A stretch of 33,442 nt of DNA, from positions 1 to 33,442 of IMG/VR virus record IMGVR_UViG_3300047552_001370; one strand, 5' to 3'. The notes under the pieces were generated by a model, which saw nothing but the letters and a program-made list of their open reading frames with translations, was not told the origin of the DNA and did not search any database. Both the position numbers and the translations under genes were made by a program. The first letter of the stretch is position 1. Every line of letters starts with the position of its first letter. Shown piece by piece: positions 1,040 to 17,992 of this stretch. The DNA is from a virus.

Positions 1040-1320
1040 AAGCTGCAGACCTTGGAGAAGGCACTTGTGCTGCGTCCCATATCAATAACAACTACGCAAT
1101 GATTTCTCTTAATATAAATCCTCATTTTACAAAACATACTAAAGAGGACTTAAAGGACTCTGCCCTACATGAGGTTATCCATGTAGTGATTTCACCTTTG
1201 ATGTTTGAGTTGTATAAATTCTATAGTTGTGATTATGTGGAGAGTCTCATAGAGCCTGTTGTAGTGAGATTAGAAAAGATTCTTAGAGGTAATAACTTAA
1301 TGCACGAGGTGGGAAAATGA
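886..1320 (+). CDS. Putative zinc metallopeptidase (HEVIH), 144 aa
   Basis: Residues 95-99 read HEVIH, a classic HExxH zinc-protease motif, within a predicted helix (LHEVIHVVISPL). A later conserved-looking Glu lies at 123 in SLIEPVVVRLE. Small phage proteins with HExxH followed by E-x2-V-x-RL are familiar; I know no proven substrate. There is no signal peptide, so it probably acts in the cytoplasm. The first 25 residues are Lys/Gln-rich and look disordered. The ATG has a good GGAG eight bases upstream, although it lies deep inside the previous gene, and a stop in this frame at 880-882 prevents a longer start. Its stop overlaps the next ATG (ATGA at 1317-1320), which implies translational coupling. 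Confidence 0.65.
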   Translation: MQKMQEQELESTCKAKTKKTSKSISQKEAIKLFKGYVKEFLYLVPDFNIEVEAADLGEGTCAASHINNNYAMISLNINPHFTKHTKEDLKDSALHEVIHVVISPLMFELYKFYSCDYVESLIEPVVVRLEKILRGNNLMHEVGK

Positions 1321-1934
1321 AAAAGTTTATAGGTGTATTTCTTTTACTGGGATGTTTCTTTTCCTATAAGGTAAAGGCGTTTTCTCAGAGGTTATCAAAG
1401 CCTGAGCACTTATCTTATATCAATCTTCCTGCAGGTACGGAAAGTATTAGGGTAGACCCAGAAGGATCTCTTTATGGAGGCAGGCCTTTTAGCTCTACTA
1501 CTAATTATAAATTAGTAATAGATAGGTCTAATCTCCCAAAGAGTGTATTCAATGATGCTATCTATACTGCTGTAGTCATGGCAGCAGATTCTTGGAATCT
1601 ATTTATGGGAGATTTTACCTTTATCAGTCAAAACCAAACTAACTATAACGGAGTAGTTACTGTAAAATTTGTAGATCTCACTGCTAATCTACCACTAGGT
1701 TTTATTACTAAAACTCCAGAAGAATTTAATTGTACTATCACAATCACTAAAGTTTCTGCAGCAAAAAATTGGAAGCTGCATGCCCACGAAATGGGGCATT
1801 GTTTTGGGTTAGGTCATGCACTCCCTGTTTCAAGTCTTGACGGGTTCTATTCTTTAATGATACCTTCTAGTGGAGGTTCTCTTACTAGGTTTAATATAGA
1901 AATGAGAGAACTCATAAGGAAAAACATGCAATGA
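1317..1934 (+). CDS. Exported matrixin-like zinc metalloprotease, 205 aa
   Basis: Residues 157-167 are HEMGHCFGLGH, the full HExxHxxGxxH zinc-binding signature of metzincins. SLMIPS at 179-184 fits the downstream Met-turn, so this is a matrixin-type fold. The N-terminus (MKK, then FIGVFLLLG) is a signal peptide; VKA ending at residue 21 suits signal peptidase I. An alternative lipobox, LLGC, ends at Cys13 but would give an unusually short leader. The protein should therefore act in the periplasm, on the surface or outside the cell. It is coupled by ATGA overlaps at both ends (1317-1320 and 1931-1934). Such a protease is not a standard phage structural or lysis gene; host-envelope remodelling or a fitness role is inference. 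Confidence 0.75.
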   Translation: MKKFIGVFLLLGCFFSYKVKAFSQRLSKPEHLSYINLPAGTESIRVDPEGSLYGGRPFSSTTNYKLVIDRSNLPKSVFNDAIYTAVVMAADSWNLFMGDFTFISQNQTNYNGVVTVKFVDLTANLPLGFITKTPEEFNCTITITKVSAAKNWKLHAHEMGHCFGLGHALPVSSLDGFYSLMIPSSGGSLTRFNIEMRELIRKNMQ

Positions 1935-2422
1935 AGATGAAATTTACACACCGTAAAGCGTCCATGCAGGATCTACCTGCGCTAGCTCCTTTAGCAGCAG
2001 CTTTATTGAAAGATCAGAAACTTCCGTTTAAAACTACTGGGGAAAAGGCAACACCTTGGTTTGTGAATAGATATCTAAGAAGCCCAGAAGGAGTCTGCTT
2101 TATAGCAGAAGCTGAGGATAAGATAGTAGGGTGGATAGGGGCTTCAATAGCCCCTTACGCCTTTAGTGACGAAGACCTTTGTCAGGTTGCAGCTTGGGAT
2201 GTGCACCCTGACTATAGAGGAGTAGGTGTAGGAAGAGTTTTATTATCGAAGGTAATGGCTTGGGCTAGATTAAGGGGAGTTAACCTTGTCTCAGTAGGTG
2301 TTAATGCCGATGCTTCTTCTCATCCAGAAGCAGCGTATACAGCTTTAGAAAACGTAGGGTTTAAGGAATTTGAAAGAACTTATTATATTAAGGTGAGAGA
2401 TGAAAACTCAAAAGAGATTTGA
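1931..2422 (+). CDS. GNAT-family N-acetyltransferase, 163 aa
   Basis: The protein fits the GNAT fold. Beta strand 4 is WDVHPDYRG, followed by RGVGVGRVLL, which matches the acetyl-CoA pyrophosphate-binding R/Q-x2-G-x-G/A loop, and near the C-terminus AAYTALENVGFKEF fits the usual end of the fold. Length is normal for a stand-alone GNAT enzyme. The acetyl acceptor is not predictable from sequence; in phages these enzymes may modify host or phage proteins or small molecules. The start overlaps the protease stop (ATGA), and the end overlaps the next gene by 23 bases. Family confidence is high, function unknown. Confidence 0.85.
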   Translation: MKMKFTHRKASMQDLPALAPLAAALLKDQKLPFKTTGEKATPWFVNRYLRSPEGVCFIAEAEDKIVGWIGASIAPYAFSDEDLCQVAAWDVHPDYRGVGVGRVLLSKVMAWARLRGVNLVSVGVNADASSHPEAAYTALENVGFKEFERTYYIKVRDENSKEI

Positions 2423-2660
2423 AGAGTTTGACTTTGCTAAGCTGGCTAGATTTGTAAAGAAATGTCAGACTATTCCTGATTATAAGTTATTTATAGAGTA
2501 TATCCTTTTATTGAGACAGGAGTATCTGGATGATTTGAGAGAGTCTACTGTAAAAGGTAATACTACAAAGGCAGCAATAGCTTGTGGTCAAGAGAAAACT
2601 CTGATAGATCTAGAAGATAATATTAAATATATTCTTGGATTCTCATACAAGGTAGACTAA
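2400..2660 (+). CDS. Hypothetical helical protein, 86 aa
   Basis: Unrecognised. It is predicted mostly helical and charged, with a Leu-rich middle (FIEYILLLRQEYLDDL) and a C-terminal KTLIDLEDNIKYIL helix. There is no signal peptide or metal motif. The ATG sits within the acetyltransferase end behind AGGTGAGAG, which serves as the ribosome-binding site. It belongs to the same tightly overlapping rightward operon. Gene call good, function unknown. Confidence 0.6.
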   Translation: MKTQKRFEEFDFAKLARFVKKCQTIPDYKLFIEYILLLRQEYLDDLRESTVKGNTTKAAIACGQEKTLIDLEDNIKYILGFSYKVD

Positions 2661-2673
2661 TAAAGGAGTACTT

Positions 2674-2772
2674 ATGAAAACAGTAGAAGATCTTGATAAT
2701 TCGGTTAGAACTTTAGAAGTGTGGATTAACTATATGACAGAGTTTAATTGGGATTATTATCTACCTTATTGA
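2674..2772 (+). CDS. Small hypothetical protein, 32 aa
   Basis: This short gene starts 13 bases after the previous stop, behind a strong AAAGGAG. It encodes an acidic, aromatic-rich peptide (MKTVEDLDNS at the start, ending WDYYLPY). Its last 7 bases overlap the end of the leftward gene at 2766, so the two transcription units converge with no spacer and no obvious terminator hairpin. The ribosome-binding site is the main support; I do not recognise the product. Confidence 0.5.
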   Translation: MKTVEDLDNSVRTLEVWINYMTEFNWDYYLPY

Positions 2773-3002
2773 AAGTTACCAGTTTCCACACACTTCTTGA
2801 AGGCGTCATTTATGTCTTGCCAGTTGTCTATTAGTTTACGTAATTCTTCTCCGCAGACACATCCTCCTTTTACATTTACTGGGCGTACTGCAGGAGTATA
2901 AGGCTTTGGCATGGCTGTGAGTTTAGAGGAACAAGAGAACATTGCACATAAGATTATTATACCTAGGATAGTCCATAAGATGACTTCTATTACTTTAAGC
3001 AT
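2766..3002 (-). CDS. Putative outer-membrane spanin-like lipoprotein (Rz1-like), 78 aa
   Basis: A hydrophobic N-terminal segment (residues 5-23, ILWTILGIIILCAMF) leads to FSCSSK, so Cys24 could be a lipidated Cys, though MFSC is not an ideal lipobox. A Pro-containing linker (MPKPYTPAVRP) follows, then a Cys pair (CVC) and a charged helix. Small size, lipoprotein-like start and Pro-rich linker fit o-spanins, which join the inner-membrane partner to disrupt the outer membrane at lysis. It overlaps the upstream spanin candidate by 13 bases and lies at the end of the lysis cassette. It is the last gene of the leftward unit. Confidence 0.5.
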   Translation of the reverse strand: MLKVIEVILWTILGIIILCAMFSCSSKLTAMPKPYTPAVRPVNVKGGCVCGEELRKLIDNWQDINDAFKKCVETGNFQ

Positions 3003-3292
3003 TTATCTGACTCCCAGGAATTATTAGATAACAAACAAGACTCTCTAGTATCATCAGTTGGAGCTATTTCCCTTGAGATGTGCAATAATTCTTTCCTCGA
3101 TTGTATCTCCCTCTCCATCTTCTCCTTCTTCTGCATCATACTCAAAGTACTCTCTAAACTCTGCAGAGCTGTCTTCGTCGTAGAATCCTTCCTTCCCTTG
3201 AGGTAGAATCCAATTAACAAGCTGATCCCAACTAAGTTTATTGATATCAATTTCCAGTGAGTGAAAAAAAATTGTGTTACTTCTTTCATCAT
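2990..3292 (-). CDS. Putative inner-membrane spanin (Rz-like), 100 aa
   Basis: One membrane segment near the N-terminus (about residues 15-31, ISINLVGISLLIGFYLK) is followed by a charged, coiled-coil-like helix (residues 40-75) and a C-terminal tail with two Cys. This is the topology of i-spanins such as lambda Rz: an N-terminal anchor in the inner membrane and a periplasmic coiled coil. It sits downstream of the endolysin and overlaps a lipoprotein-like gene, the usual Rz/Rz1 arrangement. AAGGAT precedes two adjacent ATGs (3292 and 3289), and the second is better spaced. The call rests on topology and context, not on recognised homology. Confidence 0.55.
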   Translation of the reverse strand: MMKEVTQFFFTHWKLISINLVGISLLIGFYLKGRKDSTTKTALQSLESTLSMMQKKEKMEREIQSRKELLHISREIAPTDDTRESCLLSNNSWESDKCLK

Positions 3293-3307
3293 ATCCTTGA
3301 ACTATTA

Positions 3308-3607
3308 TTAATCTTGGTCCTGAGTCTGTATAGGATGGATAGGTTGGAGTTGTAATAACTGCCTCCTTAACTCTATATTCTCAATCTCTAACTTAGAGAT
3401 CTCTTCGTTAAGAGCTCTTACTTGTGACTCTAATGCGTCTATTCTTTGACGCATTATATCCGCCCATTTAAATATAGATTCCAATACTATGTGATCTGCC
3501 TCTGCTTTATTCTTCTTCTTACTGATTATAGCAGACGCAATACTTCCTAGTACACTACTCCCAACTATTGCAGGTATAGTTACTCCTAAAAGCTCTATCA
3601 TACTCAT
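3308..3607 (-). CDS. Membrane-anchored coiled-coil protein in lysis cassette (holin or spanin-like candidate), 99 aa
   Basis: The N-terminus holds one hydrophobic Gly/Ser/Ala-rich segment (residues 4-27, LLGVTIPAIVGSSVLGSIAS). A basic KKKNK stop-transfer follows, then a long heptad-rich helix (about residues 45-88) and a Gln/Pro tail. I start it at ATG 3607 because that ATG overlaps the endolysin stop as ATGA; a TTG at 3613 is possible. No other membrane protein lies next to the endolysin upstream, so it is a holin candidate, but a single span plus long coiled coil also resembles an i-spanin. Function is inferred only from position and topology. Confidence 0.5.
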   Translation of the reverse strand: MSMIELLGVTIPAIVGSSVLGSIASAIISKKKNKAEADHIVLESIFKWADIMRQRIDALESQVRALNEEISKLEIENIELRRQLLQLQPIHPIQTQDQD

Positions 3608-4002
3608 GGCCAATTATCCTTTATAAATTCCATGACTGTTGGAGTAGGACAACTTTTACCCTGCTTCCTGGCAGAAGGGTACTCACAATGCCCTGATACT
3701 TTCTTTATTTGGTGAGACCTCTTTAAATCTTCAACTAAAAATTTTAAGGAATCGAATTGCTCTTTAGTAAATTCTTTCAATCCTATTAAACAGATTCCTA
3801 TCGAAGTCATATTTACTTCTGGGCAATGGGCTCCAGACATATAGATAGGCCTTCCTTCTTCAACCTTACCATCCTTAGTAATTACATAGTGATACCCTAT
3901 GTCTCTCCACCCAAGTCTATCTTTATGGTATTGTCGTATAGACTTGGCATTACCAGTCTCTGTAGCAGAACAATGTATAGTGATGTTATCTATAGGCCTC
4001 AT
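3604..4002 (-). CDS. Endolysin: N-acetylmuramoyl-L-alanine amidase (T7 lysozyme type), 132 aa
   Basis: The protein closely follows T7 lysozyme (amidase_2 fold). Zinc ligands fit His10 (ITIHCSAT), His105 (VSGHCEYPSA) and Cys118 (GKSCPTP). Tyr37 in GWRDIGYHYVI and Lys116 match catalytic positions of T7 lysozyme. It cleaves the amide bond between muramic acid and L-Ala in peptidoglycan at lysis. It has no signal peptide, so release should need a holin. Length is slightly under T7 lysozyme because the N-terminal extension is missing. In T7 that extension contributes to RNA polymerase inhibition, and no phage RNA polymerase is seen in this window. Start overlaps the upstream stop as ATGA. Confidence 0.93.
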   Translation of the reverse strand: MRPIDNITIHCSATETGNAKSIRQYHKDRLGWRDIGYHYVITKDGKVEEGRPIYMSGAHCPEVNMTSIGICLIGLKEFTKEQFDSLKFLVEDLKRSHQIKKVSGHCEYPSARKQGKSCPTPTVMEFIKDNWP

Positions 4003-7000
4003 TTATTCCTCAGCTTAGCTTTACGTTTCTTGTTTTCATCCCCATGAAAAAGCTTAGATGTAGGTAACCCCAGCATTCCTCTAACATCTCCTTTTTGACC
4101 TGCCTCAATCTTCTTCATTAAACTCACAGCAGGCAACCAATTAAGACCAGCCTTACCAGCTTCTACATATTTACCTTGAGCAAAGTTATCAACTACACTG
4201 CCTACTAGAGGGTTTATAGTAGGGCTTAATAAGTTCACCCCTGACGTGGCAGGATGCTGAGTTGCTAAATCTGTATTAGTAGAATAATCTAATAGCCCTA
4301 AAAGGACTGCAGGTATTGCGGCTCTCTTACCTATATTAGATATCAAAGATTTACCTGTGTTCTTCCCTTGGTCTACTGCAAGGTATCTGCTCCAAGCTTC
4401 AGATCCCCAAGAAGTGAATGGAATTACTCCACCCAATTTACCTTTGAATACTCCCGGTCTATTCACATAGTCCTGAAAGAAGTTAATCCTATTGGCTTTG
4501 ATGATCCCATACTCTACACCAGCAGCATGAGCATTACCTGTTTTCAAGACATCTAGGACTATCTGTCTTTCTCCAGAATTCATAGGAACCTGAGCTAGAT
4601 AGTTGTACTTGTTAGGCTCTGCCATGAACTCTTTATAAGACATTAGAAATGACTTCTGCCTGTTACTCTTTTCTATGGCTTCAAATACTTTAGTCCCTGG
4701 CTGAGCTGGAGCAGTAATGATCTTTTCTGCTATCTCTAGCCCCCTAGGAACTTTACCAACTCCTGGCATATCCAGGACTCTCTGCTCTCCTTGGGTAATA
4801 AATAGTTTACTCTTTACAGTCTCTATGAGAGCTTTGTCTTCTTTACTCTTAATAGGTTTAGCCCATTCTTTGACCACATTTTTATAATCTTTCAGTTCAC
4901 CAGAAGCCATAACTGGAACGTTTAGTTCGTTCATTATCAGAGGCTTTAATCTCATGCCTAGAACATTTTTATACATGAAGTTGTATGCACTATTGCGTAT
5001 GGCGTCGAATAAGGGCATGTTCTCGTTAGAGGCCATAGCCGACAATCTATCAATTATCTTTTGGTTCTGCCCTTGAAACTCTTTATAGGGGATACGACGA
5101 GCGAGCCTAGGGTCCTGGAATCCCATAGATTCTCCCATTTCATCCAGCCACATATTAGCTACATCATCTTTCTGTAGCAGTTTGAGCTGAGAATAGATCT
5201 TCGTCATTTCTGGTACTAATTTTCCTACAGTTCTTTCTCCAGCTACCATGTTGGAATATCTTTTTAAAAGAAGGTACGGATTAGTCTCATGAATACTAGG
5301 ATCAAACACACCATGTGTTCTCTCATTCTCGAAGGTAAGAGTCTGATCTCCGAGTATGGTTTTACCCTTACCAGTACTATGTTTAGGAATCTTCTCCCAT
5401 AAAGGAACATACCCTGGAAGGTATTCAGCATTGCTTTGAGACTGCAGATAATCAAATGCAGCTCTCCATTTACCCATGACCTCTTGTTGCTCTATAGTAG
5501 GTCTCTTACCTTCCTTTGGGAAGGCAGGAGTGTTTACCTTAACTTGACCATTAGTTTCTACTTTCAAGGGTGACTCGTCCCACACTATACCTTGAGTCCT
5601 AGTCCTGGTATAAGGCAGCCAAGAGATAATATCCTGCTCAGATAGCCCGTTCTTTTTTGAGTCTTTTATAAGCCCTTTAAAGTTCACTACTGAGTCTAAT
5701 CTAATCTCTTCATTAATCTTTTCTCTACGAGCGGTAAGCACTTTAGGGTAGACTACTCCAGACTCTACCCCAGCTAACCTAGTAGGTTTCTCCCAAAAGT
5801 CTGTACCCGTCTTTATATCTCTTTCCGAGAAGTTCTTACTTAAAGTCTTACCTGATTCTGATACATATCCTTTAGCATTTACCTCCGTAAATACTTCTGG
5901 GAAATTCTTCATGAAGGCGGCTCTATAGGAAGTCTCAGCCTTCTTTATCAAAGATAATTTCTGAGATGCTGAAAGAGAGGGATCACTAACTCTAGATACC
6001 TCAGTGGTTAAGCTAGCAACTCTTCTTTGAAAATCTACAGTAGTCTCCCCTTCAAGAGGAGTAGCCTCTCTAGCATTACTTAATTTACTTAGAACTTGTT
6101 CCTTCACAGAAGTAGGTGGAGACATCTTTTCTGGAATACCTTTTAAACCACCAAAATCTCCCACTCTGTTAGGTCCTACTCCAAGTTCTCCACCAGTGCC
6201 AGAAGGTCCGTCAGTATCAAATTTAAGCTTAGATAAGGTAACTTCCTCTAGCTTCTTACCACCTGGCTTACCATTGGGTTTAAAGCCCCATACAGCTCCT
6301 AATGCCGTCTGAGCTATGGTCTCTTCCATATCTGAGCCTGTAGCCGTGCTAACAGCCCCTCCTACAGTGCCAGATACAATAGCTTTAGCTATTGGGTTTA
6401 GCTCTAACTTCCCAATGACATCAAAAGCTTTACCCATTCCAGCGCTTATAGCTCCGGTAGTAATAGCTTCTTGAGCATTCCCTGTAGTACCATAACTTTC
6501 TAGACCTGATTGCACACCCATAGTAGTAGCAGCACCAAGCCCAGTAAACCTTTGTAAGGTCATCAACTGAGCCATGTAGAGGGCTCCCTGGGCACCACCT
6601 TTAGCTACCTTATTTCTAACTGCTTCTAATGAGGAACTAGCTTCAGGTTCTAACTTACCAGCTACATTTTTAGCACTTTCTCTAAAACCAGATAGCTCCT
6701 TCTTAGCTGCCTCTGCTTGCTCAGATCTAGCATTTAGATAATCCATTGCTAGATTAGGAGAAACGCCTAGATATTCAACTAGATCTTTAGTAAGTTCTAT
6801 TTGCTTAGTGGCTAGGTTATTAACACCTTGGAGCGTACCAGCCGCCATATCAGCACTTTTCACAGTAGCTTGTAGTACAGCCTTACCGAGGTTTTTAGCT
6901 CCTCTTACTGGGTTTATAAAGTCCATTACCTGTTGTTTAGTAGAGGGGGTCTCCTCAGTCATCCCAGCATTAGTCATGATCTGAGAGACATAATTAGTTG

Positions 7001-7586
7001 TTTCTTTAAACCTTTTCCATTTTCCACTATCCACATTACCTGGCCCTGCATTATATGCAGCTAGCGCCAGATCCCAGGATCCATATTTCCCATAAAGATC
7101 CTTCATATAGCGCATACCTGCATCAGCAGATTGCTTCCAATCGTACGGATCAGTTATTCCATATTCTTTTGCAGTAGCATCAATAAACTGGAACATCCCT
7201 TTAGCTTGACCATATTTTGTCATAGGGCCAGTAGCTCTAGGGTTGAACCTAGATTCTTGCCAAGCCTGAGCCATAGCTAGATCTGGAGGTACACCATTCT
7301 CATTAGCCTTCTCAATAATGTAAGAGGCGTACATGTTATTGACTTTATCTGTAGCTTGTATCTGCTTCTTCTTTGGGGAGACTGGTAGATCGGCAGGAGC
7401 CTCTCCCATAGGTTTATTTGAAGCTACCTTATTAATGACCCCTTCTTCCTCACTGAAGCCACTATTACTGATCATCCTCTCTGCAAAGGCTTTAGGGTCA
7501 AATTTAGATACTTCACTAGTATTAGAAGTGACTGGTTGAGACTCAGCAATCTTTTTTGCTGCAAAAGCTTTGGGATCAAACGCCAT
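3999..7586 (-). CDS. Large virion/ejection protein with N-terminal lytic transglycosylase domain, 1195 aa
   Basis: Residues about 85-205 form a soluble lytic transglycosylase (SLT, goose-lysozyme-like) domain. The catalytic Glu fits position 111 (QESRFNP); the supporting motifs are GMFQF at 130-134 and AAYNAGPGNV at 176-185. It should cut MurNAc-GlcNAc bonds to open the cell wall during DNA entry. A short FDPKAFA motif occurs twice in the first 40 residues. The remainder is long, mostly helical and not recognised, with Ala/Gly-rich segments around 345-420 and a basic C-terminus. Size, an SLT domain and a place after the nozzle and before lysis genes match podovirus internal virion proteins (compare T7 gp16). 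ATGA-coupled to the endolysin gene. Confidence 0.85.
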   Translation of the reverse strand: MAFDPKAFAAKKIAESQPVTSNTSEVSKFDPKAFAERMISNSGFSEEEGVINKVASNKPMGEAPADLPVSPKKKQIQATDKVNNMYASYIIEKANENGVPPDLAMAQAWQESRFNPRATGPMTKYGQAKGMFQFIDATAKEYGITDPYDWKQSADAGMRYMKDLYGKYGSWDLALAAYNAGPGNVDSGKWKRFKETTNYVSQIMTNAGMTEETPSTKQQVMDFINPVRGAKNLGKAVLQATVKSADMAAGTLQGVNNLATKQIELTKDLVEYLGVSPNLAMDYLNARSEQAEAAKKELSGFRESAKNVAGKLEPEASSSLEAVRNKVAKGGAQGALYMAQLMTLQRFTGLGAATTMGVQSGLESYGTTGNAQEAITTGAISAGMGKAFDVIGKLELNPIAKAIVSGTVGGAVSTATGSDMEETIAQTALGAVWGFKPNGKPGGKKLEEVTLSKLKFDTDGPSGTGGELGVGPNRVGDFGGLKGIPEKMSPPTSVKEQVLSKLSNAREATPLEGETTVDFQRRVASLTTEVSRVSDPSLSASQKLSLIKKAETSYRAAFMKNFPEVFTEVNAKGYVSESGKTLSKNFSERDIKTGTDFWEKPTRLAGVESGVVYPKVLTARREKINEEIRLDSVVNFKGLIKDSKKNGLSEQDIISWLPYTRTRTQGIVWDESPLKVETNGQVKVNTPAFPKEGKRPTIEQQEVMGKWRAAFDYLQSQSNAEYLPGYVPLWEKIPKHSTGKGKTILGDQTLTFENERTHGVFDPSIHETNPYLLLKRYSNMVAGERTVGKLVPEMTKIYSQLKLLQKDDVANMWLDEMGESMGFQDPRLARRIPYKEFQGQNQKIIDRLSAMASNENMPLFDAIRNSAYNFMYKNVLGMRLKPLIMNELNVPVMASGELKDYKNVVKEWAKPIKSKEDKALIETVKSKLFITQGEQRVLDMPGVGKVPRGLEIAEKIITAPAQPGTKVFEAIEKSNRQKSFLMSYKEFMAEPNKYNYLAQVPMNSGERQIVLDVLKTGNAHAAGVEYGIIKANRINFFQDYVNRPGVFKGKLGGVIPFTSWGSEAWSRYLAVDQGKNTGKSLISNIGKRAAIPAVLLGLLDYSTNTDLATQHPATSGVNLLSPTINPLVGSVVDNFAQGKYVEAGKAGLNWLPAVSLMKKIEAGQKGDVRGMLGLPTSKLFHGDENKKRKAKLRNK

Positions 7587-7587
7587 C

Positions 7588-8721
7588 TTAATACCCCATT
7601 AGTTTGAGGAATTGTTGTGCAGTAGGGTCATTAGGGTTCTTTCTAGCCCAGTCTAACGTAGCTGCCTCTTCTTGGGATAATTGTTTAGTAGGAGCAGTAG
7701 GCTGAGATTCTGGTTGCTGTGTGATCCCACCTTTACTTTGAAAAAACTGTTGGATTGCCCCTTGATTTCCAGAAGCTAATTCAGAACGTAGTCTAGCAGC
7801 CTCTTTAGAAGATATCTCAGGAGGAACAGTAATCTTCATATTAGGCCCATATGCTGACTTAAGACTGTCAGGATCAGTTCCTACAAAGTTAGAGACTAGA
7901 TTGTCTGCGATATATGTAGCTTGACTATCAGTGTAGCCAAATCGTGCTGCTTCTGCTCGTATCTTCTCCTTAGCTTTCTCTGGATCTTTTATTGAACCTG
8001 AGCTAAACATTCCAGGGTTACTACCAAACTCTTTAAGGATACCTCCAAATTGGTTTACATCCACTTCTTTAGGTGTTTCTCTTGGTTTGATATAATTTTC
8101 TGTTATCTGTCGTAAATAGTTACCGTCTGTGCCGCCTTTAGCTTTGTTCTTTACCTTTTCAATTTCTTCAAGAACATTTAAAGAGGAGGTAAAATACCTC
8201 TTAGCTGTCTCTCGTACCTCAGGATCAGGGTCATTGAGTTTAAGAGCAGCCCTCCCTATCTGTTTCATAGTGTCAGGGTCTATTACTGTTTTATATTGCT
8301 CAGCTAATATCTGCCCAAGAGCTGGCAACGCTGCTTTTCCAGCTGCCATGAGTTGTTTAGCCATCCCAGGTTGTTGCTCTGCAAGAGCAGAGGCAAGTGA
8401 CTGTTGAGCTTCATATTGTTGCTGTTCTACAGCAAACTTATTAGCTTGTAGGTCTTGACGTTGAGCTTCTATTCCTACTTCCTTCTCTCTTAACCCATAC
8501 TTCTTTTCTTCCATCCCCTGCTGGAATTGTTGCTGCCCTGCTTCTAACCCTAGACGAGCTTCTATAGCTTTGGTCTTACGTTCTTCTATCCCTTGAGCCC
8601 AAGCTTCTTTCTCAGCATCAGCTTCTGCTTTCTTCTTAGATTTCTTCTCACCTGCTACGTCAGCGAACCCTTGACGTAACATCTCGAGACCTTGCATCAA
8701 TCTATCAAATCCGTTAGCCAT
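7588..8721 (-). CDS. Putative internal virion protein with long coiled coil, 377 aa
   Basis: The first 130 residues are highly charged and Gln-rich (EKKSKKKAEADAEKEAW and later QQQFQQGMEEKKY), predicted as a long helix or coiled coil. The middle is helical and the C-terminal 50 residues are Gln/Pro/Thr-rich before a conserved-looking NPNDPTAQQF. It lies between two giant virion proteins with 1-2 base spacings, so it is probably co-translated with them. By position it could be a T7 gp14/gp15-type ejection component. No enzymatic motif seen; the structural role is inferred from context. Confidence 0.6.
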   Translation of the reverse strand: MANGFDRLMQGLEMLRQGFADVAGEKKSKKKAEADAEKEAWAQGIEERKTKAIEARLGLEAGQQQFQQGMEEKKYGLREKEVGIEAQRQDLQANKFAVEQQQYEAQQSLASALAEQQPGMAKQLMAAGKAALPALGQILAEQYKTVIDPDTMKQIGRAALKLNDPDPEVRETAKRYFTSSLNVLEEIEKVKNKAKGGTDGNYLRQITENYIKPRETPKEVDVNQFGGILKEFGSNPGMFSSGSIKDPEKAKEKIRAEAARFGYTDSQATYIADNLVSNFVGTDPDSLKSAYGPNMKITVPPEISSKEAARLRSELASGNQGAIQQFFQSKGGITQQPESQPTAPTKQLSQEEAATLDWARKNPNDPTAQQFLKLMGY

Positions 8722-8723
8722 AA

Positions 8724-11486
8724 TTATCTCATCGTAGATTTAAGTTTAACACCATTGCCAATATAATACCCTTCAGAAGTCAATATATCATAAGTATAAG
8801 GGTATTCTTTATGGGATGTCATATAAGGCACCATATCAATTAATTCTGCTTCATAAGGATGCCCTTTACTCATCAACACCTCTCCTGTAGAGAAAGTGTG
8901 ATGATAGAAGATATGGGTAGTAGGTCTAGGCACTCTCTGGATCGCAATAACTATACCTCCTTTAACCTTATCTCCTAACTTAACTTTAGGTACTTTCTTA
9001 ACAGTACCGTCTACCATTTCGATTTCTGTATCAGGATGTAGACAGAAAGCTGCATACCCACCTAATGCAGCTCCAGCTCCACCTGCCACTGCACCAAGAA
9101 TATCTAGAGCTCCCCAAGGAGTGGTTTGAGTTGTGGTCTGTTGCTGTGCTCTAATACCACCAAGATTAGCAGCTCCTTGCCCATAGGCTCCAGCCGTAGA
9201 GTTCAAGTTAGATATCTGTTGTTGTTGCAAACTATTCAACAACTGAGCATACTGGCCTCCAGCCTGGAATCCAATAAGAGGCTGAGCAACCCCCATTCTA
9301 AGGTTTCTTTCATAGTCTCCTTGAGCTGCTTGAGTACTAGTAAGAGCAGCTGCTTTTTGTTGCCTAAGTGCCGCTATCTGTTGTGCCATTGAAGCAGCAC
9401 CTTGAGCCTGTAGTACATTCTGCCCCTCTACTGCTGCTGTTTGAACCTGACCAGTAGCCCCTAGAGCTGCGGAATTAAGAGCAGCAGTTCCCCCAAGATA
9501 TTGTTGTTGTAACTTGGAGAAATCCCCTGTGCGTTGTGCTTCTAACAAAGCAGCATTTGCTAGACCTTGCTGTTGAAGGTTTCCTAGATCCCCTTGATAT
9601 TGTCTTAACAGAGAAGAAAGTCCTCCTAATCCGGCTGTATCAGCACTAGCAAGCCCTGCCATACGCTGTGCTTCCATAAGGCCTTGCTGCCCAGTTAAAG
9701 TAGCAGCTAATCCACTCTGCCCAGCTATTGCCTGTTGATTAGCAAGCCCAACTGCACCGAGAGCAGCAGCTTCTAATTGGCCTTGTTGTCCTAACTGCTG
9801 AGCATTTAATTGACCTAATCCCCCTTGGAATGCCGCTTGTAGTTGCCCTTGTACTCCAAGTCCTGTTGCTAGAGCCATTCCAATAGCACCAGCAGATCCA
9901 GCTTCTAACTCTCCTTGAGCTCCTATTCTTGCAGCTCCAGCCTGAGACAAGCCTCCTAAGAAAGCAGCTTGTAGCTCTTTCTGAGCACCTGTAGCTGCAG
10001 TTCCTAATTGACTATACGCAGCATTAGAGGATTCTCCATAAGCTCTTTGGAAGGCAGTATCAGTAGAAGATCTCCCTAATCTTTCTGCAGAAGAATCAAG
10101 ATCTCTTTTCTGAATACGTAAATTCTCAGACACTAATCCTTTAGCTTGGGCTATCTGGGTGTTAAGAGCTTCCTGGCTTACTCCATATTGTGCTCCTAAT
10201 CCCGCTACAGTATTAAGATAGGTAGAGTCTATCTGAGCTTGACTTGCTCCTTTATCACTTTGGATCTTTGCTAAGGTTACTCCAACCTGAGCTACTGATT
10301 GAGCAACATTACTCTCGTAAGCAGCAGTAAGGTCAGCCCTACCAGCTAAATAACCTGCATAGATCTGCGCAGATCCTTTACCATATTGGTCTTGGATCTG
10401 AGCCATAGTCATACCAAGTTGGTTCTGGATATCTGATTGTCCACGAACGTATACATCCATTAAAGCTGCAGACCCAATCCCGTATTGATTCTGTACTTCT
10501 GTTTTAATAGTATTAACTTGGTTTATTAACTCTTGTTTTCCAATTCCATATTGAGCTTGAAGCTCTGATTCTCCAAGGTTCATCATATTCTGGAGTTGTT
10601 GTAAACTTACCCCATACTTAGACTCGATATCTGCCTGCCCCATATTGAATTGATTCAATAATTGAGTATTACCTTGGAGTAACTGACTAGAGATCTCTTG
10701 CATTCCTTTAGCTGTAGTAGCGACTATTTGAGCATTCCCAGCATCTATCTGAGATAATACAGCAGCTCTTACAGCCTCTTCAGAACTAGCATATTCAATC
10801 GTAATCATATCCATTACGTCTTGAAAACTGTCCCCCATGATACCTTGAATGCCAGCTTCCTGTTCTGCAGTAAAAGATAGATCTCCATTAAGAAGCTTTC
10901 TTGTAGCTTCAAACAAAGCTTCATCCGTGAGATCTTCTCTAACTTGAGCTCTAGCTTCTCTCCTTAACTGTTCAGGAGACTTCATCCATTGAGTGCCATC
11001 TACAGGCTCTCTAGGCTGATTTACAAGAGGAGCAAGATCCTTCTGTATATTTTGCAATTCTCCTTCTAATTGTAGCCTTTCAGGACTACCAGGCTCTAAT
11101 GTAGCAATACGCTCCCTGAGGGCAGCGGCTTTAGCTTCTAAGGATTGAATAAGTTGTTCATCTGGGCGGATACCATATCCTGAAGAGGAAGAGGAAGAAG
11201 TACCTCCTGTAGAACCTCCTAAAACACTGCCACTACTGGTACCACCTACAACAGAGGTTCCTCCAGTGGATGTACCTGTTGGAGTTGTACTCGCAGTAGA
11301 TGTGGAGCCCCCGCCAAGAGAGCTTCCTATAGAATTTGATAAAGTTCCTGAAGAAGTAGTCCCCCCAGTAGGAGTTGTAGAGGTGTTAGTTACCACTTTT
11401 GGTGCAGTACTAGTAGTTGTACTAGTAGCAGGAGTTCTATTAAAAATATTAGTACTAGTAGTAGATCTTAATTCTTTAAGTGCCAT
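8724..11486 (-). CDS. Giant Ala/Gln-rich virion protein with C-terminal Hint domain, 920 aa
   Basis: Residues 1-110 are a Ser/Thr/Gly low-complexity region. Residues 110-250 are helical and charged. Residues 250-470 carry degenerate repeats of about 20 residues around a QYGIG core, and residues 500-770 carry Gly/Ala/Gln repeats of the G-x-QG-x-L-x-A type. A hydrophobic Gly/Ala segment (about 788-814, ILGAVAGGAGAALGGYAAF) follows. From Cys815 to the end is a Hint-type domain, listed separately. The long helical repeats and position suit an internal or tail-associated ejection protein. Phage proteins of this shape often end in a chaperone or peptidase domain; here a Hint module takes that place. 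The start overlaps the upstream stop by one base (TAATG). Confidence 0.7.
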   Translation of the reverse strand: MALKELRSTTSTNIFNRTPATSTTTSTAPKVVTNTSTTPTGGTTSSGTLSNSIGSSLGGGSTSTASTTPTGTSTGGTSVVGGTSSGSVLGGSTGGTSSSSSSGYGIRPDEQLIQSLEAKAAALRERIATLEPGSPERLQLEGELQNIQKDLAPLVNQPREPVDGTQWMKSPEQLRREARAQVREDLTDEALFEATRKLLNGDLSFTAEQEAGIQGIMGDSFQDVMDMITIEYASSEEAVRAAVLSQIDAGNAQIVATTAKGMQEISSQLLQGNTQLLNQFNMGQADIESKYGVSLQQLQNMMNLGESELQAQYGIGKQELINQVNTIKTEVQNQYGIGSAALMDVYVRGQSDIQNQLGMTMAQIQDQYGKGSAQIYAGYLAGRADLTAAYESNVAQSVAQVGVTLAKIQSDKGASQAQIDSTYLNTVAGLGAQYGVSQEALNTQIAQAKGLVSENLRIQKRDLDSSAERLGRSSTDTAFQRAYGESSNAAYSQLGTAATGAQKELQAAFLGGLSQAGAARIGAQGELEAGSAGAIGMALATGLGVQGQLQAAFQGGLGQLNAQQLGQQGQLEAAALGAVGLANQQAIAGQSGLAATLTGQQGLMEAQRMAGLASADTAGLGGLSSLLRQYQGDLGNLQQQGLANAALLEAQRTGDFSKLQQQYLGGTAALNSAALGATGQVQTAAVEGQNVLQAQGAASMAQQIAALRQQKAAALTSTQAAQGDYERNLRMGVAQPLIGFQAGGQYAQLLNSLQQQQISNLNSTAGAYGQGAANLGGIRAQQQTTTQTTPWGALDILGAVAGGAGAALGGYAAFCLHPDTEIEMVDGTVKKVPKVKLGDKVKGGIVIAIQRVPRPTTHIFYHHTFSTGEVLMSKGHPYEAELIDMVPYMTSHKEYPYTYDILTSEGYYIGNGVKLKSTMR
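8727..9044 (-). other. C-terminal Hint (intein/hedgehog-type) domain of the 920-aa protein
   Basis: This segment encodes residues 815-920. It begins with CLHPDTEIEMVDG and KVKLGDKV, matching intein block A: a leading Cys, a D/N-T-x-I strand, and an LxxGDxV strand. MSKGHPYE matches block B, with S-x2-H in place of T-x2-H at Ser873 and His876. YTYDILTSEGYYIGNGV matches block F. The terminal His-Asn and following Cys/Ser/Thr needed for splicing are absent, and the protein ends KLKSTMR. It could still promote an N-S acyl shift at Cys815 and cleave the chain there, or be a vestige. No homing endonuclease insert is present, so this is a mini-Hint of about 106 residues. Confidence 0.75.
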
Positions 11487-11764
11487 TAACTCTTCCTCCC
11501 AAGTCTACTAGAAATACTGCCAATATCTATCCTGGGTCTGTTTCCAGCATTGCCTATTTGCCCATTCATTCCACCACCGCTGCCTGACCCTGGGCCTCCG
11601 CTGTAATTACCCCACATTCCATAATTAGTTTTATTATTGACTTTATAGAAACCTTGTGCCATCATAGATGCATCTAAGGCAGCCTTAAAGGATTCTTGTA
11701 AAGCAATTTCCTGCTCAGTAGGAGGAGGAATTTCAACTTTAGTTGTAGTATCTTTACCACCCAT
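11486..11764 (-). CDS. Hypothetical virion-associated protein, 92 aa
   Basis: Unrecognised. The N-terminal half is helical (PPPTEQEIALQESFKAAL). The second half is Gly/Ser/Asn-rich (GNYSGGPGSGSGGGMNG) and ends in a basic GSISSRLGRKS. It is sandwiched between a fibre-like gene and the 920-residue virion protein, with a one-base TAATG overlap to the latter. A small structural or assembly role is likely from context only. Confidence 0.5.
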   Translation of the reverse strand: MGGKDTTTKVEIPPPTEQEIALQESFKAALDASMMAQGFYKVNNKTNYGMWGNYSGGPGSGSGGGMNGQIGNAGNRPRIDIGSISSRLGRKS

Positions 11765-11772
11765 TTTTCACC

Positions 11773-12522
11773 TCAAGAAAGAGAACCATAAATAGCAACC
11801 ATGAATTCTGTAGGATCTGTGAGAGCCCCAGTAGATTTTAATCTACAAGTTATACGAACTGTAGTCGTACTCTTAGTGGAAGAGTCATAACTTCCTATAA
11901 TGGGGTCAGCTCCATTATCCGCACAAGTAACAGTTACTCCAAAAGCTGTATCCAACATTGCTCTACTAAATGTTATTAAAAAATCTCCTGCACCTGTATC
12001 CCCTACAGAGGTCACATTATACCGAGTAGATAATGTAGGAGTACCTCCTGAAACTGTGACTAAACAATGAGCTACAGGGCCTCTAGTGTATTGATAAACA
12101 TCAAATCTACTATCTGGAGTAGTGCTACTATCAGCACTAGTAAAATTAGTACCAATAGTGACATTTGACGCTGAAACATTATTTAGACTAGCAGGCCCTA
12201 TAGTACCCCCAGTTATTGTTGGTGAAGTCAGTGTCTTGTTAGTTAACGTTTGAGCAGTGGTTCTTCCTACAAAAGTATCAGTACCAATCGTAGTAGGGAA
12301 CGCCCATAGATTTCCACTAGTATCAGTTATCCCAGATGAAGCTACTAAATTGGAGAAAGTCCAAGTACCTGAAACTGATTCAGTACTAGTTTTATCAGGG
12401 GCTCGCGCTACTACTTGAGACGCCCAAGACTCAATAGAAGTCTTCACAGCATCTAATTGAGCTTCTGATAGTTTAGTACCATCATTATATAATTTTGTTA
12501 TTGACAAGCCTGGGATAGCCAT
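11773..12522 (-). CDS. Tail fibre-like structural protein, 249 aa
   Basis: A beta-rich protein without enzymatic motifs. The first 110 residues share a clear module with the fibre at 15182-16072. Shared elements are a helical DGTKLSEAQLDA/IESWASQ region, DKTSTESVSGTWTFSN, then DTFVGRTTAQTLTNKTLTSP. The last motif is typical of phage tail-fibre shaft segments. The C-terminal 120 residues are Thr/Ser-rich beta and probably form the outer part. The shared N-terminus suggests that both fibres use the same attachment site on the virion. It overlaps the nozzle gene by one base (TAATG). Confidence 0.65.
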   Translation of the reverse strand: MAIPGLSITKLYNDGTKLSEAQLDAVKTSIESWASQVVARAPDKTSTESVSGTWTFSNLVASSGITDTSGNLWAFPTTIGTDTFVGRTTAQTLTNKTLTSPTITGGTIGPASLNNVSASNVTIGTNFTSADSSTTPDSRFDVYQYTRGPVAHCLVTVSGGTPTLSTRYNVTSVGDTGAGDFLITFSRAMLDTAFGVTVTCADNGADPIIGSYDSSTKSTTTVRITCRLKSTGALTDPTEFMVAIYGSLS

Positions 12523-14096
12523 TATAATGTCACCTGTTCCATAGTATCTTCAGTGGACTCACATTCTATATTATATCCAAAAATCTCCATAGATTTGCCC
12601 TCAGTTGGTAAAGTGGGAGTGCAATTGAATCCTATTCTTATAGAGCTACCATAACCATTAAGAGGTAAACTAACTTTTGATAGATCTGATGCACCTCCAA
12701 GAGTGTCTACACCAAGAAGAAATTCTCCTAACTCTCCTCCTGTGATAACCGAATTTATTTCGTAAGTTTTTAAATTTTGATCATCCACCTGAGCAGTAAC
12801 ATTTATTGTGTCACTAGTTGGTTTAAAAAATACAGTGAGATTTTTAAACCCCCAAGTATTTCCAGGAAGTTGCCCTGGAAAGATCCTAGGGGTAGTGAAT
12901 GATGAACTAAACGCAACTAAGAAATCAGTAAAAGTCTCGTCTTCCAATGGGCTTAACAAGCCTACATTCGCATTTTCTGTACCAATAATTAACCTGGTCC
13001 TCTTATATGCATCTATGAAAGTAGATAAAAAAGTAGCTCCAAAATCTTCCCAATAAAAGAAATCCTTGGTAATAGTATTATACCCTAAAAGGTCCCATAT
13101 ATCTCCTCCCCTCCTAGGGAAAGTCATTAAATAGGAGTTATATTCAGGGATAAAAACTCCAGATATCTCTTTACCTCTAGAAAAATCTATTCTATTCTGC
13201 CAAATATCATGTACAGGGAATGACAAGAATGAAGTCTCTACATCTCCGTAATTCAAAGTAGTAGAAAGACTATGCAAGCCTCTATAAGAAGGAAAAATGA
13301 TGTCATTCTGCACAGCTGCTGCAGCGTTATGTCCAAGGCAGCCTATTGTATTTATTACTGGAACTACTGCGATAGGGGACGTACTGGTAGTAAGTCTGTA
13401 TATTGATCCCCATTTGGCGACATATAAGTCTCCAAATATATCTGGGAAAAGTGCAGTGATCCCATAAGGATCAGAGGCACCTAAATCTATATTAATTTGG
13501 TCAGAAGTACCAGTAAGCCAATCTTCAGGGTCTTCTGTATCTGATTTATACACTGAATGTGGTGTGGATGAGTCACCAGCTATATAAAAGCTAGATTTAT
13601 GTTTCCTCACTATCCAGCCATTAGGAGGAAATCCTTCTAGTTCAAACGTACTCCCACTCTGTATATACCCTAATGGAGCTTGACCCTCTACTCCTATGAT
13701 AGTAAACCCTACTAAAGTATCAGCGGACACTCCAATATAATTACTAGAGGAATTAATGGATCCTATTTGGGTGAATACTCCATTGGCATTATCTGCATAA
13801 ATTCTACCGTCTGCTATAGTTACTACTTGTTGATTCTGGGTACTACCACTAGTCCTCCAGAAATCTTTTATAAGCTTTACATTACTTCCAGATCCCATAC
13901 CAGATACATGGTAGGGCTCTATTCCTGGCCTAGTTCTTCGGCTAGCACTGGTGGTATGGATAAGGTTATTACTTATAGATAATGCATCAGCAGGTTGAAA
14001 TACTAACGGTAAAGAGCTATTAAGCCCTTTATCTGCAGGGAAGATAGAGACTACTGTTGTCTTCCTCTTAGCGGATTGATATAAATTAACAGCCAT
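12522..14096 (-). CDS. Tail nozzle / head-completion protein (P22 gp10-like beta-propeller), 524 aa
   Basis: Length and pattern fit the podovirus nozzle or stabilization protein family: an N-terminal LNSSLPLVFQPADALSISNN and RTRPGIEPY segment, repeated beta blades with short turns (QNQQVVTIADGRIYA, DLYVAKWGSIYRLT, NDIIFPSYRGLHSLS), and a C-terminal beta domain. In P22, gp10 binds the adaptor ring and closes the head. It directly follows the adaptor gene in transcription order with a 3-base gap, as in many podoviruses. Recognition is from pattern and gene order, so the exact subfamily is uncertain. Confidence 0.72.
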   Translation of the reverse strand: MAVNLYQSAKRKTTVVSIFPADKGLNSSLPLVFQPADALSISNNLIHTTSASRRTRPGIEPYHVSGMGSGSNVKLIKDFWRTSGSTQNQQVVTIADGRIYADNANGVFTQIGSINSSSNYIGVSADTLVGFTIIGVEGQAPLGYIQSGSTFELEGFPPNGWIVRKHKSSFYIAGDSSTPHSVYKSDTEDPEDWLTGTSDQINIDLGASDPYGITALFPDIFGDLYVAKWGSIYRLTTSTSPIAVVPVINTIGCLGHNAAAAVQNDIIFPSYRGLHSLSTTLNYGDVETSFLSFPVHDIWQNRIDFSRGKEISGVFIPEYNSYLMTFPRRGGDIWDLLGYNTITKDFFYWEDFGATFLSTFIDAYKRTRLIIGTENANVGLLSPLEDETFTDFLVAFSSSFTTPRIFPGQLPGNTWGFKNLTVFFKPTSDTINVTAQVDDQNLKTYEINSVITGGELGEFLLGVDTLGGASDLSKVSLPLNGYGSSIRIGFNCTPTLPTEGKSMEIFGYNIECESTEDTMEQVTL

Positions 14097-16075: not shown

Positions 16076-16627
16076 TTACCTCTTAAATAAAGTCACAAAA
16101 ATATCGGATACCACATTCCAATAATGCTTTATTGCAAACTGCTTTGCCTCATCAGATCTATTAGACCACACTGGGTCCAAGGAGTATCCATACTGAAAAT
16201 CAAAATCAGTAGTGATAGCATAATGATCTAATTTATTAGCCTCTCTCCATGCTTTGTTGTAATACATGAAGGTAGCTTCACTGATAGCCTGTACATGTGT
16301 AGGATCCTGCCAGCATCTGATAGAAGTATAATAGGGAGCTGCAATACTACATTTAGCTCCCTTCTTCATCACACGATGAAGCTCATTCATAAAAGGAATT
16401 AAATCCTTGACATGTTCTATATAATGACTTATCTTAACTTCATCAACACTTTCATCCTTGAAAGGCCAAGGATATGTCTCTAAATCATGGACTACATCAG
16501 TCTTTTCTGTCTTTATATTATCTACTCCAACCCAACCATCTTCCTTGTTATTACCACAACCAAGATCTAATTTTATTGGGCTCTGCTCAACATTTGCTAA
16601 ATCCTTTATCTTACTCTTTTTAGTCAT
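16076..16627 (-). CDS. Class I SAM-dependent methyltransferase, 183 aa
   Basis: Motif I is KLDLGCGNN (residues 19-27), the SAM-binding loop, followed by WVGVDN, where the Asp would hold the ribose. SHYIEHVKD and NELHRVMKKGAKCSIAAPYY match motifs around the HxxEH and post-motif region of small-molecule and sugar methyltransferases. Proteins of this shape often sit beside sugar-nucleotide genes. It overlaps the dehydratase gene by 8 bases. Likely substrates are a sugar or glycan made by the cassette, but protein or nucleic-acid methylation cannot be excluded. Confidence 0.8.
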   Translation of the reverse strand: MTKKSKIKDLANVEQSPIKLDLGCGNNKEDGWVGVDNIKTEKTDVVHDLETYPWPFKDESVDEVKISHYIEHVKDLIPFMNELHRVMKKGAKCSIAAPYYTSIRCWQDPTHVQAISEATFMYYNKAWREANKLDHYAITTDFDFQYGYSLDPVWSNRSDEAKQFAIKHYWNVVSDIFVTLFKR

Positions 16628-17606
16628 TTAACCACCTCGGATTTTCCATAAACCAGTTGACTGTTCTTGTTAGAGACTCAATGAAATTGACTGGTAATTC
16701 AAATCCCATTTCCTTTAATTTAGTCCCATCCAAGGCATACCTAAGGTCATGTCCTGGTCTACTAGAATGAAAATCTACCATTTCATAATGAAGAGGCTCC
16801 CCAATTATCTTTGCAATTAAGGAGGCCATCTCCAGATTATCTACTTCTCTTTCTCCAACAACATTATACTTATCTCTAATTCCACCGTTTTCCATCAAGA
16901 AGCTCACCGCAGATGCAACATTTCTTGCGTGTATCCAAAAACGTGAACCAGCTTTTGTCTTGCTGGGATTGCTGTGAATCAAGATCTTCTCGCCATTCAA
17001 AATACTCTTTATACATTTTGGAATAAATTTCTCCTGGTGCTGCCTTTCTCCGAAAACATTCATAGTGTGTGTAATAACTACCGGGACTTTGTACGTGTTT
17101 GCCCAAGCGAGGCACAGCTCTTCTCCTGCTGCTTTAGATGCTGAATAAGGGTTAGTCGAATCATACCTATCCCACTCTTTATAAGCCACCCCTTCTGGGG
17201 CTGGACCAAACACCTCATCGGTAGAAAAATAGATCATCTTCTTTAATGATTTCAATGAACGAGCGAACTGCAGTAAGTTCATTGTACCAATAATATTACT
17301 CCTAATAAAAGGCTCCGGGTTAACTATAGAGTTATCTACATGGGTCTCAGCTCCCATATGTACTATATAATCAACCTCCCCAATCTCACTCTTTAATCCC
17401 ATCTCTATAGGCAAAGTAAAATCTGCAGCCAATAGGTGAACTCGGTCTTCCTTAAAGGCTTTTATATCTCTCAATCTATCAAACCCATTTGAAGCATAAT
17501 TCAATCTATCTAAAATTACTAACTGATCCTCGGTATTCTTTAAAAGATGTTCTACAAGATGATGCCCTATAAACCCACATCCCCCAGTAATTAATACTTT
17601 ATTCAT
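16620..17606 (-). CDS. NAD-dependent sugar-nucleotide 4,6-dehydratase (RmlB-like), 328 aa
   Basis: An extended short-chain dehydrogenase fold. GxxGxxG is at TGGCGFIG (7-14), the catalytic block is STDEVFG (128-134) with Asp130-Glu131, and YSASK (154-158) holds Tyr and Lys. RPGHDLRYALD near the C-terminus is the diagnostic RmlB substrate-binding segment. Length matches RmlB. The expected reaction is dTDP-glucose to dTDP-4-keto-6-deoxyglucose; the neighbouring cytidylyltransferase leaves a CDP-sugar possible. It is coupled to the cytidylyltransferase stop by ATGA. Catalytic residues look intact, so it is probably active. Confidence 0.88.
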   Translation of the reverse strand: MNKVLITGGCGFIGHHLVEHLLKNTEDQLVILDRLNYASNGFDRLRDIKAFKEDRVHLLAADFTLPIEMGLKSEIGEVDYIVHMGAETHVDNSIVNPEPFIRSNIIGTMNLLQFARSLKSLKKMIYFSTDEVFGPAPEGVAYKEWDRYDSTNPYSASKAAGEELCLAWANTYKVPVVITHTMNVFGERQHQEKFIPKCIKSILNGEKILIHSNPSKTKAGSRFWIHARNVASAVSFLMENGGIRDKYNVVGEREVDNLEMASLIAKIIGEPLHYEMVDFHSSRPGHDLRYALDGTKLKEMGFELPVNFIESLTRTVNWFMENPRWLND

Positions 17607-17992
17607 AGATTTTTTACTAACCCTATTAATTTTGTAGTGGAAAGTCCGTGTTGTCTAGAAACATAATGAATAGGTATGTTTAATTCCTCCCCAGTGAAAG
17701 GTTTTCCAATATAATCATCCCCTAAAAATCTTATATGAAGCTGATTAAGGCTCTTGAGTGAGATTAATTTATCTAATAATTGTTTCTCTCCCTTATATAG
17801 GAATGTCTGATCTATGTACTTTATAGCTTCTAAGATCTTCCTAGTGTCTAAAGGAGAGTGAACTCTTCCATGTTTACTTATTAGATTTATACCAACTATA
17901 AGATGATCGCAGTAGCCTCTAGCTTCTTTAAAGAGGTCTATGTACCCTGGATGAATAAGATCAAAAGCTCCACACGTAAACCCGTATATCAT
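17603..17992 (-). CDS. TagD-like cytidylyltransferase with altered HxGH motif, 129 aa
   Basis: Same length and layout as glycerol-3-phosphate cytidylyltransferase (TagD). It has GAFDLIHPGY at residues 8-17, then a FLGDDYIGKPF block corresponding to the TagD GDD segment, and SRQHGLSTTKL matching the RTEGISTT nucleotide-binding motif. The expected role is to activate a phosphorylated alcohol or sugar with CTP. The odd point is position 17: the second His of the HxGH catalytic motif is Tyr (codon TAC instead of CAC or CAT), while His14 is kept. Activity may be reduced or the chemistry may differ. It lies between the glycosyltransferase and the dehydratase. Confidence 0.8.
   Translation of the reverse strand: MIYGFTCGAFDLIHPGYIDLFKEARGYCDHLIVGINLISKHGRVHSPLDTRKILEAIKYIDQTFLYKGEKQLLDKLISLKSLNQLHIRFLGDDYIGKPFTGEELNIPIHYVSRQHGLSTTKLIGLVKNL

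Follow-up and report, generated by a model that had tools for sequence, protein, structure and literature searches.

A Hint domain at the hydrophobic boundary of a phage ejection-position protein may act by N-terminal self-cleavage

Introduction

Ejection proteins of phages are packed in the capsid, exit through the narrow tail and then enter membranes. Those of the gp14 and gp16 kinds have conserved membrane-spanning elements (PMC8954989), and we found no mention of Hint domains or of proteolysis in that review. In inteins, which have the Hint fold, the chemistry at the N-terminal bond involves Cys1, Thr B:7, His B:10 and Asp F:4, and that at the C-terminal bond involves His G:6 and Asn G:7 (PMC4031507). 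In B-type bacterial intein-like (BIL) domains, the C-terminal motif is missing and cleavage takes place at the N-terminus (PMC7765530). Thus, N-terminal cleavage by Hints of this form is already known, as are phage Hint proteins, which are present in databases. In a literature search that was thin on subscription journals, we found no published description of a splice-less Hint domain on an ejection-position protein. Here, we describe such a domain and compare it with these systems.

Results

Genome Setting and Gene Order

The stretch of DNA analyzed here ("the window") comprises 33,442 bases and covers an entire IMG/VR virus record. Its genes include an SU10-type portal (Pfam, E 6e-22), a large terminase and an amidase; thus, the source virus is a tailed phage and, judging by these genes, probably a short-tailed one. 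Four features on the minus strand are central to the analysis, listed in the order of transcription:

12522..14096 (-): tail-hub protein, P22 gp10-like, the synteny anchor (hhalign 99.8% with the L002 gene; phrog_5107, E 1e-12)
8724..11486 (-): 920-aa virion protein with a C-terminal Hint domain, in ejection-protein position (open reading frame and gene order)
7588..8721 (-): next gene, 377 aa, second ejection-position protein (C-terminal motif in common with the gene after the L163 Hint gene, E 6e-5)
3999..7586 (-): third gene, 1195 aa, SLT transglycosylase in gp16-like position (Pfam SLT, E 4e-23; phrog_342, "internal virion protein with endolysin domain," E 4e-28)

This order matches the ejection gene order reviewed in PMC8954989, and the Hint gene lies where a gp14/gp7-type ejection protein is expected, adjacent to the tail hub and to the other ejection genes. 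The hub gene is homologous to the "phage stabilization protein" gene of phage MW202601 (L002), whose hub is linked to those of the relatives described below (87.8% probability), and these in turn to the hubs of a group of marine phages (97.3%). The direct profile link between the window hub and the hubs of the relatives reaches only E 0.12, and the homology runs through L002. In several phages of the marine group, the Hint gene comes immediately after the hub.

The N-terminal part of the 920-aa protein has no PHROG and no significant Pfam match, and hhalign did not link it to the N-terminal parts of other Hint-bearing proteins. Homology based on an apparent R-G-x-x-S motif was considered and dropped, as hhalign gave it no support. 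Either these N-terminal parts have diverged past recognition or a helix-Hint module has moved between proteins. An open reading frame of 92 aa (MGGKDTTTKVEIPPPTEQEI..., positions 11486-11764, minus strand) overlaps the start codon of the Hint gene at its end and could represent an N-terminal piece that became separated from the Hint protein.

Elsewhere in the window, positions 1317-1934 (plus strand) encode a small protein whose start resembles a signal sequence and which carries a zinc motif of the metzincin type (HEMGHCFGLGH); its best Pfam match, Reprolysin_5 at E 5.5e-5, is under the cut-off; in the related phage L002, a gene annotated as "neutrophil collagenase" closes the structural cluster. 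Consecutive methyltransferase, NAD-dependent epimerase/dehydratase and cytidylyltransferase-like genes lie within the virion gene cluster (16076-17992, minus strand), a row that resembles a sugar-nucleotide or surface-glycan set.

A Hint Domain Closes the 920-aa Protein

The initial annotation had proposed, from the letters alone, that the protein ends in a 106-residue Hint domain carrying blocks A, B and F. Motifs, profiles and a predicted fold agree with this. The stop codon occupies 8724-8726 and the leading Cys is residue 815 of 920; thus, the module runs from Cys815 to Arg920, exactly as first placed. The features within and next to it are:

8727..9044 (-): Hint domain, residues 815-920 (AF2 pLDDT 94.1, PDB fold matches, relatives at 48-51% identity)
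9042..9044 (-): Cys815, the Hint Cys1 and predicted nucleophile, with the predicted scissile bond Phe814-Cys815 (invariant in the 15-sequence and four-member alignments)
8859..8870 (-): block B motif Ser873-Lys-Gly-His876, with Thr/Ser B:7 and His B:10 (His invariant in the 15-sequence alignment)
8787..8789 (-): Asp900, the block F Asp at the F:4 position (invariant in the four-member group; role of F:4 per PMC4031507)
8727..8747 (-): C-terminal end K914-L-K-S-T-M-R920, with Lys-Ser in place of His-Asn (four-member alignment)
9045..9119 (-): hydrophobic Gly/Ala segment, residues 790-814, abutting Cys815 (contains the most hydrophobic 17-residue window of the protein)

Block A reads CLHPDTEIEM...LGDKV, block B SKGH and block F YDILTSEGYY. 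The curated Pfam models Hom_end_hint, Vint and Hint_2 all align from the Cys at E 0.04 to 0.24; even the best (Hom_end_hint, E 0.04) stays at 14 bits against a cut-off of 32.1, which is a curation limit and not a property of the fold, and the relatives that were scanned likewise score under the cut-offs of the Pfam Hint models. One NCBIfam intein model matches the tail at 3e-4. With permissive tblastn against named phages, all matches begin at the Cys (26/26) and mostly fall in genes annotated as helicase or RecA/UvsX, which are frequent intein hosts.

Profiles built from phage Hints, in line with the profile check suggested at the outset, recognize the domain. A profile of the three closest relatives scores the tail at 124.7 bits (best shuffled version, 8.5) and retains 88 bits once block A is removed from the tail. 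For a profile of 11 other phage Hints, the score is 44.8 bits (best shuffle, 11.1) and drops to -0.3 bits, no better than shuffles, without block A. The broader profile therefore sees block A alone, and the link to phage Hints at large rests on block A together with the fold.

The fold was modeled, as had also been suggested, with AF2 from a 15-sequence alignment of the window Hint and 14 relatives, and a Hint-like fold was obtained with high confidence (pLDDT 94.1, pTM 0.85); on the sequence without the alignment, pLDDT was 35. Because the alignment includes Hints that were retrieved via block A, the model is not fully independent of the motif evidence. The best 48 PDB matches listed are all Hint domains, led by Tetrahymena BUBL1 BIL2 (TM 0.78, prob 1.00) and including class 1 and class 3 inteins, a C. 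thermocellum BIL domain (0.71), a Vint domain (0.71) and Hedgehog (1at0, TM 0.71). When the fold was compared with a library of viral protein models, many of the hits bore the name Hint or belonged to typical intein hosts, among them phage proteins named just "Hint." Taken by its motifs and predicted structure, the region spanning residues 815-920 is a Hint domain.

Relatives in Uncultured Phages

Searches with tblastn in phages and protein-based scans of viral contigs recovered no close relatives (one such scan gave only L187, which had already been found), so DNA patterns were used. Viral contigs were scanned with block A and, separately, with the C-terminal motif alone; the latter scan, which is independent of block A, recovered L225, L226 and again L187, and block A lies about 80 residues upstream of the C-terminal motif in both L225 and L226. 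Three uncultured phages, L187, L225 and L226/L237 (L237 is the L226 phage), thus carry Hints 48-51% identical to that of the window, two of them found from the C-terminal motif alone. The four-member alignment has 38 invariant positions. All four Hints stand at the end of a gene that lies downstream of a P22-gp10-like tail hub and before further ejection-position genes.

Two bacterial contigs, L227 and L228, were rejected as members, being chance matches to the C-terminal pattern with no Hint. No member was found in 398 genomes from the phylum of one bacterial record, a result of little weight as the scan lacked a positive control. Two genes from its Hint gene, L225 encodes a fibre-like protein (4803-5711, minus strand) with an SDERLKKNI end that resembles an S74 self-cleaving chaperone.

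Residues of the N-Terminal Bond Are Kept and the Splice End Is Lost

The residues that serve the N-terminal bond in inteins are retained as Cys815, Ser873, His876 and Asp900, and both the T/S-x-x-H pattern of block B and the N-terminal Cys/Ser of inteins are present. Ser B:7 and Asp F:4 are kept in four of four close members. Cys1, proposed initially as the leading residue, is invariant in both alignments; most members were retrieved with a pattern that included it, but L225 and L226 were recovered independently of it. Outside the search pattern, the only invariant positions of the 15-sequence alignment are one Val and His B:10, which is thus the only invariant polar residue there, the remainder having mostly diverged to 16-26% identity. 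After redundancy reduction at 60% identity, the full-length members likewise carry the block-B His.

At the other end, the missing splice residues that had been pointed out are indeed absent: the window protein ends in NGVKLKSTMR followed by the stop codon, with none of the His-Asn, following nucleophile and C-extein that characterize inteins. Lys-Ser stands at the place of His-Asn in the window and Gly-Ser in the three relatives, the chains end within a few residues, and a C-terminal S-T is invariant in the four. The conserved C-terminal His-Asn of A-type BIL domains is found in none of the four members, and blocks A, B and F without His-Asn are the pattern of the B-type. Ahead of block B, the four-member group has an invariant H-x-F-x-x-H-x-F (Hint residues 44-51, protein residues 858-865) with group-specific His44 and His49 (domain numbering); this motif is missing from the other phage Hints aligned.

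The phage L032, a more distant case, encodes, at the same gene place (2372-3955, minus strand), a Gly/Ala helix followed by a Trp-Cys junction and TSTQ, with Gln for the block-B His. From its sequence it is a natural candidate for an inactive Hint; hence, catalysis is not to be assumed for every member. Two further arrangements were noted among Hints lacking His-Asn. In L172, L156, L221, L167 and L038, the terminal domain is preceded in the same protein by a second Hint ending in His-Asn, and a simple pattern count puts this arrangement at 9 among 105 distinct tails of splice-less Hints. Another C-terminal class (L007, L014, L017 and L119) ends in ..YAN..LVY or similar and has a C-P-x-C motif immediately ahead of Cys1.

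The Domain Begins at a Hydrophobic Boundary

A hydrophobic Gly/Ala stretch had been noted just before Cys815, and the most hydrophobic 17-residue window of the whole 920-aa protein does fall within P790-F814, ending five residues ahead of Cys815. In L187, L237 and L032, only 0-1 residues separate the corresponding window from the Cys. L225 and L163 have nearly the same junction with 1-2 windows scoring higher elsewhere in the protein, and in L137 the top window lies further upstream of the Cys. Overall, the number of higher-scoring windows elsewhere is 0-2 in six of seven other ejection-type proteins and 6 in L151. Many other phage Hints without His-Asn are preceded by Gly-rich linkers, not by hydrophobic segments, and Gly-rich linkers also precede most Hints of the larger marine group; therefore, the release of a hydrophobic tail cannot account for such Hints in general.

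Discussion

Proposed Mechanism and Alternatives

The initial interpretation is supported in part: it holds for the fold, the lost splice end, the kept Cys and His, and the hydrophobic segment before the Cys, and is refined here in that the gene occupies an ejection-protein position and that further uncultured phages show the arrangement as well. Given the fold, the missing splice end, the retained Cys and block-B His and the adjoining hydrophobic segment, a cut at Phe814-Cys815 is the best mechanistic inference. Building on computational observations of fold, residues kept and lost, gene position, recurrence and hydrophobic boundary, we favor, with a probability of roughly 55%, a B-type-BIL-like Hint restricted to N-terminal cleavage that releases an 814-residue protein with a hydrophobic C-terminus; the cleavage, its timing and the membrane role are what we infer. 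Cys815, aided by Ser873 and His876 of block B and by Asp900, would attack the Phe814-Cys815 bond in an N-to-S acyl shift, and the thioester would then be resolved by water or a small thiol. Two products would result: the ejection-position protein, shortened to 814 residues with its most hydrophobic segment at the new C-terminus, and the Hint as a fragment of 106 residues. Uncut, the hydrophilic Hint could act as a one-use cap that keeps the membrane-destined segment soluble, and a cut during assembly or ejection would expose that segment.

The main alternative, which we regard as possible though clearly less probable, is a structural Hint that is never cut and acts at the C-terminus only as a stable cap, as a chaperone or as a contact in assembly. 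The loss of the block-B His in L032 would fit such a role, as would the Hint ends that other phage proteins bear behind flexible linkers and the invariant C-terminal S-T, which has no obvious catalytic role. However, a pure cap needs neither Cys1 nor His B:10, and yet both are kept amid 16-26% identity.

The same thioester might instead be passed from Phe814 to a lipid, a sugar, an amine, or a virion or host protein, so that the ejection protein would be covalently anchored in a Hedgehog-like manner. The match of the fold to Hedgehog, the group's invariant H-x-F-x-x-H-x-F as a possible extra catalytic site and an acyl donor that would be the very end of the hydrophobic segment are consistent with such a transfer, but the protein ends at the Hint with no acceptor or recognition domain after it, and we consider this unlikely. 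More speculative still, and improbable in our judgment, is that the Hint could be an acyl transferase working at the time of infection, using H-x-F-x-x-H-x-F to join the hydrophobic C-terminus to a host or virion acceptor and thereby anchoring a membrane channel covalently. A decaying intein or captured-element relic without present function, which the missing C-terminal splice residues and C-extein could suggest, is rejected as very improbable because the domain is intact at the same gene position in four phages with 48-51% identical Hints, its N-side residues are conserved and its C-terminal sequence is specific and conserved rather than random.

If the favored reading of N-terminal cleavage only is true, a one-shot self-cleaving cap would directly answer the question of how membrane segments are kept from doing harm before ejection in short-tailed phages. 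The Hint superfamily would gain a function in virions, and the 103-106-residue domains would be naturally small modules for N-terminal cleavage. The placement of the Hint at the hydrophobic boundary suggests that self-cleavage may serve this phage to release a membrane-seeking tail.

Comparison With Known Systems

Like T7 gp14 and P22 gp7, the window protein comes after the hub and ahead of a second protein and a transglycosylase-bearing third protein, and has a hydrophobic segment; those proteins are only about 200-230 aa long (PMC8954989), whereas the window protein has 920 aa and a Hint, and no sequence match between them was found. With inteins (MchDnaB-1, gp41-1 and the PI-SceI splicing domain) it has in common the Hint fold and a block A profile match (1gpp, E 7e-6); unlike them, it lacks His-Asn, a C-extein and an endonuclease, and could not splice by the known route. 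The Hedgehog autoprocessing domain (1at0) also has a Hint fold (TM 0.71) in C-terminal position and cuts on its N-side via Cys1, but the sterol-recognition region that follows it is absent from the window protein, and identity is 12%. For the Asp or His that serves sterol activation in Hog domains, His44 and His49 of the four-member group would at most be candidate counterparts. BUBL1 BIL2 of Tetrahymena thermophila (PDB 6y75, 6tmm) is the best fold match (TM 0.78) at only 13% identity; its solved variant is C1A-N143A, so BIL2 has the C-terminal Asn that the window Hint lacks. The bacterial proteins that carry B-type BIL domains are variable, and an atypical C-terminal cleavage is described for these domains as well, whereas the window Hint sits in a phage virion protein and has nothing after it. 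Like these domains, it combines the Hint fold with every intein motif but the C-terminal one, and N-terminal cleavage would be expected of it (PMC7765530).
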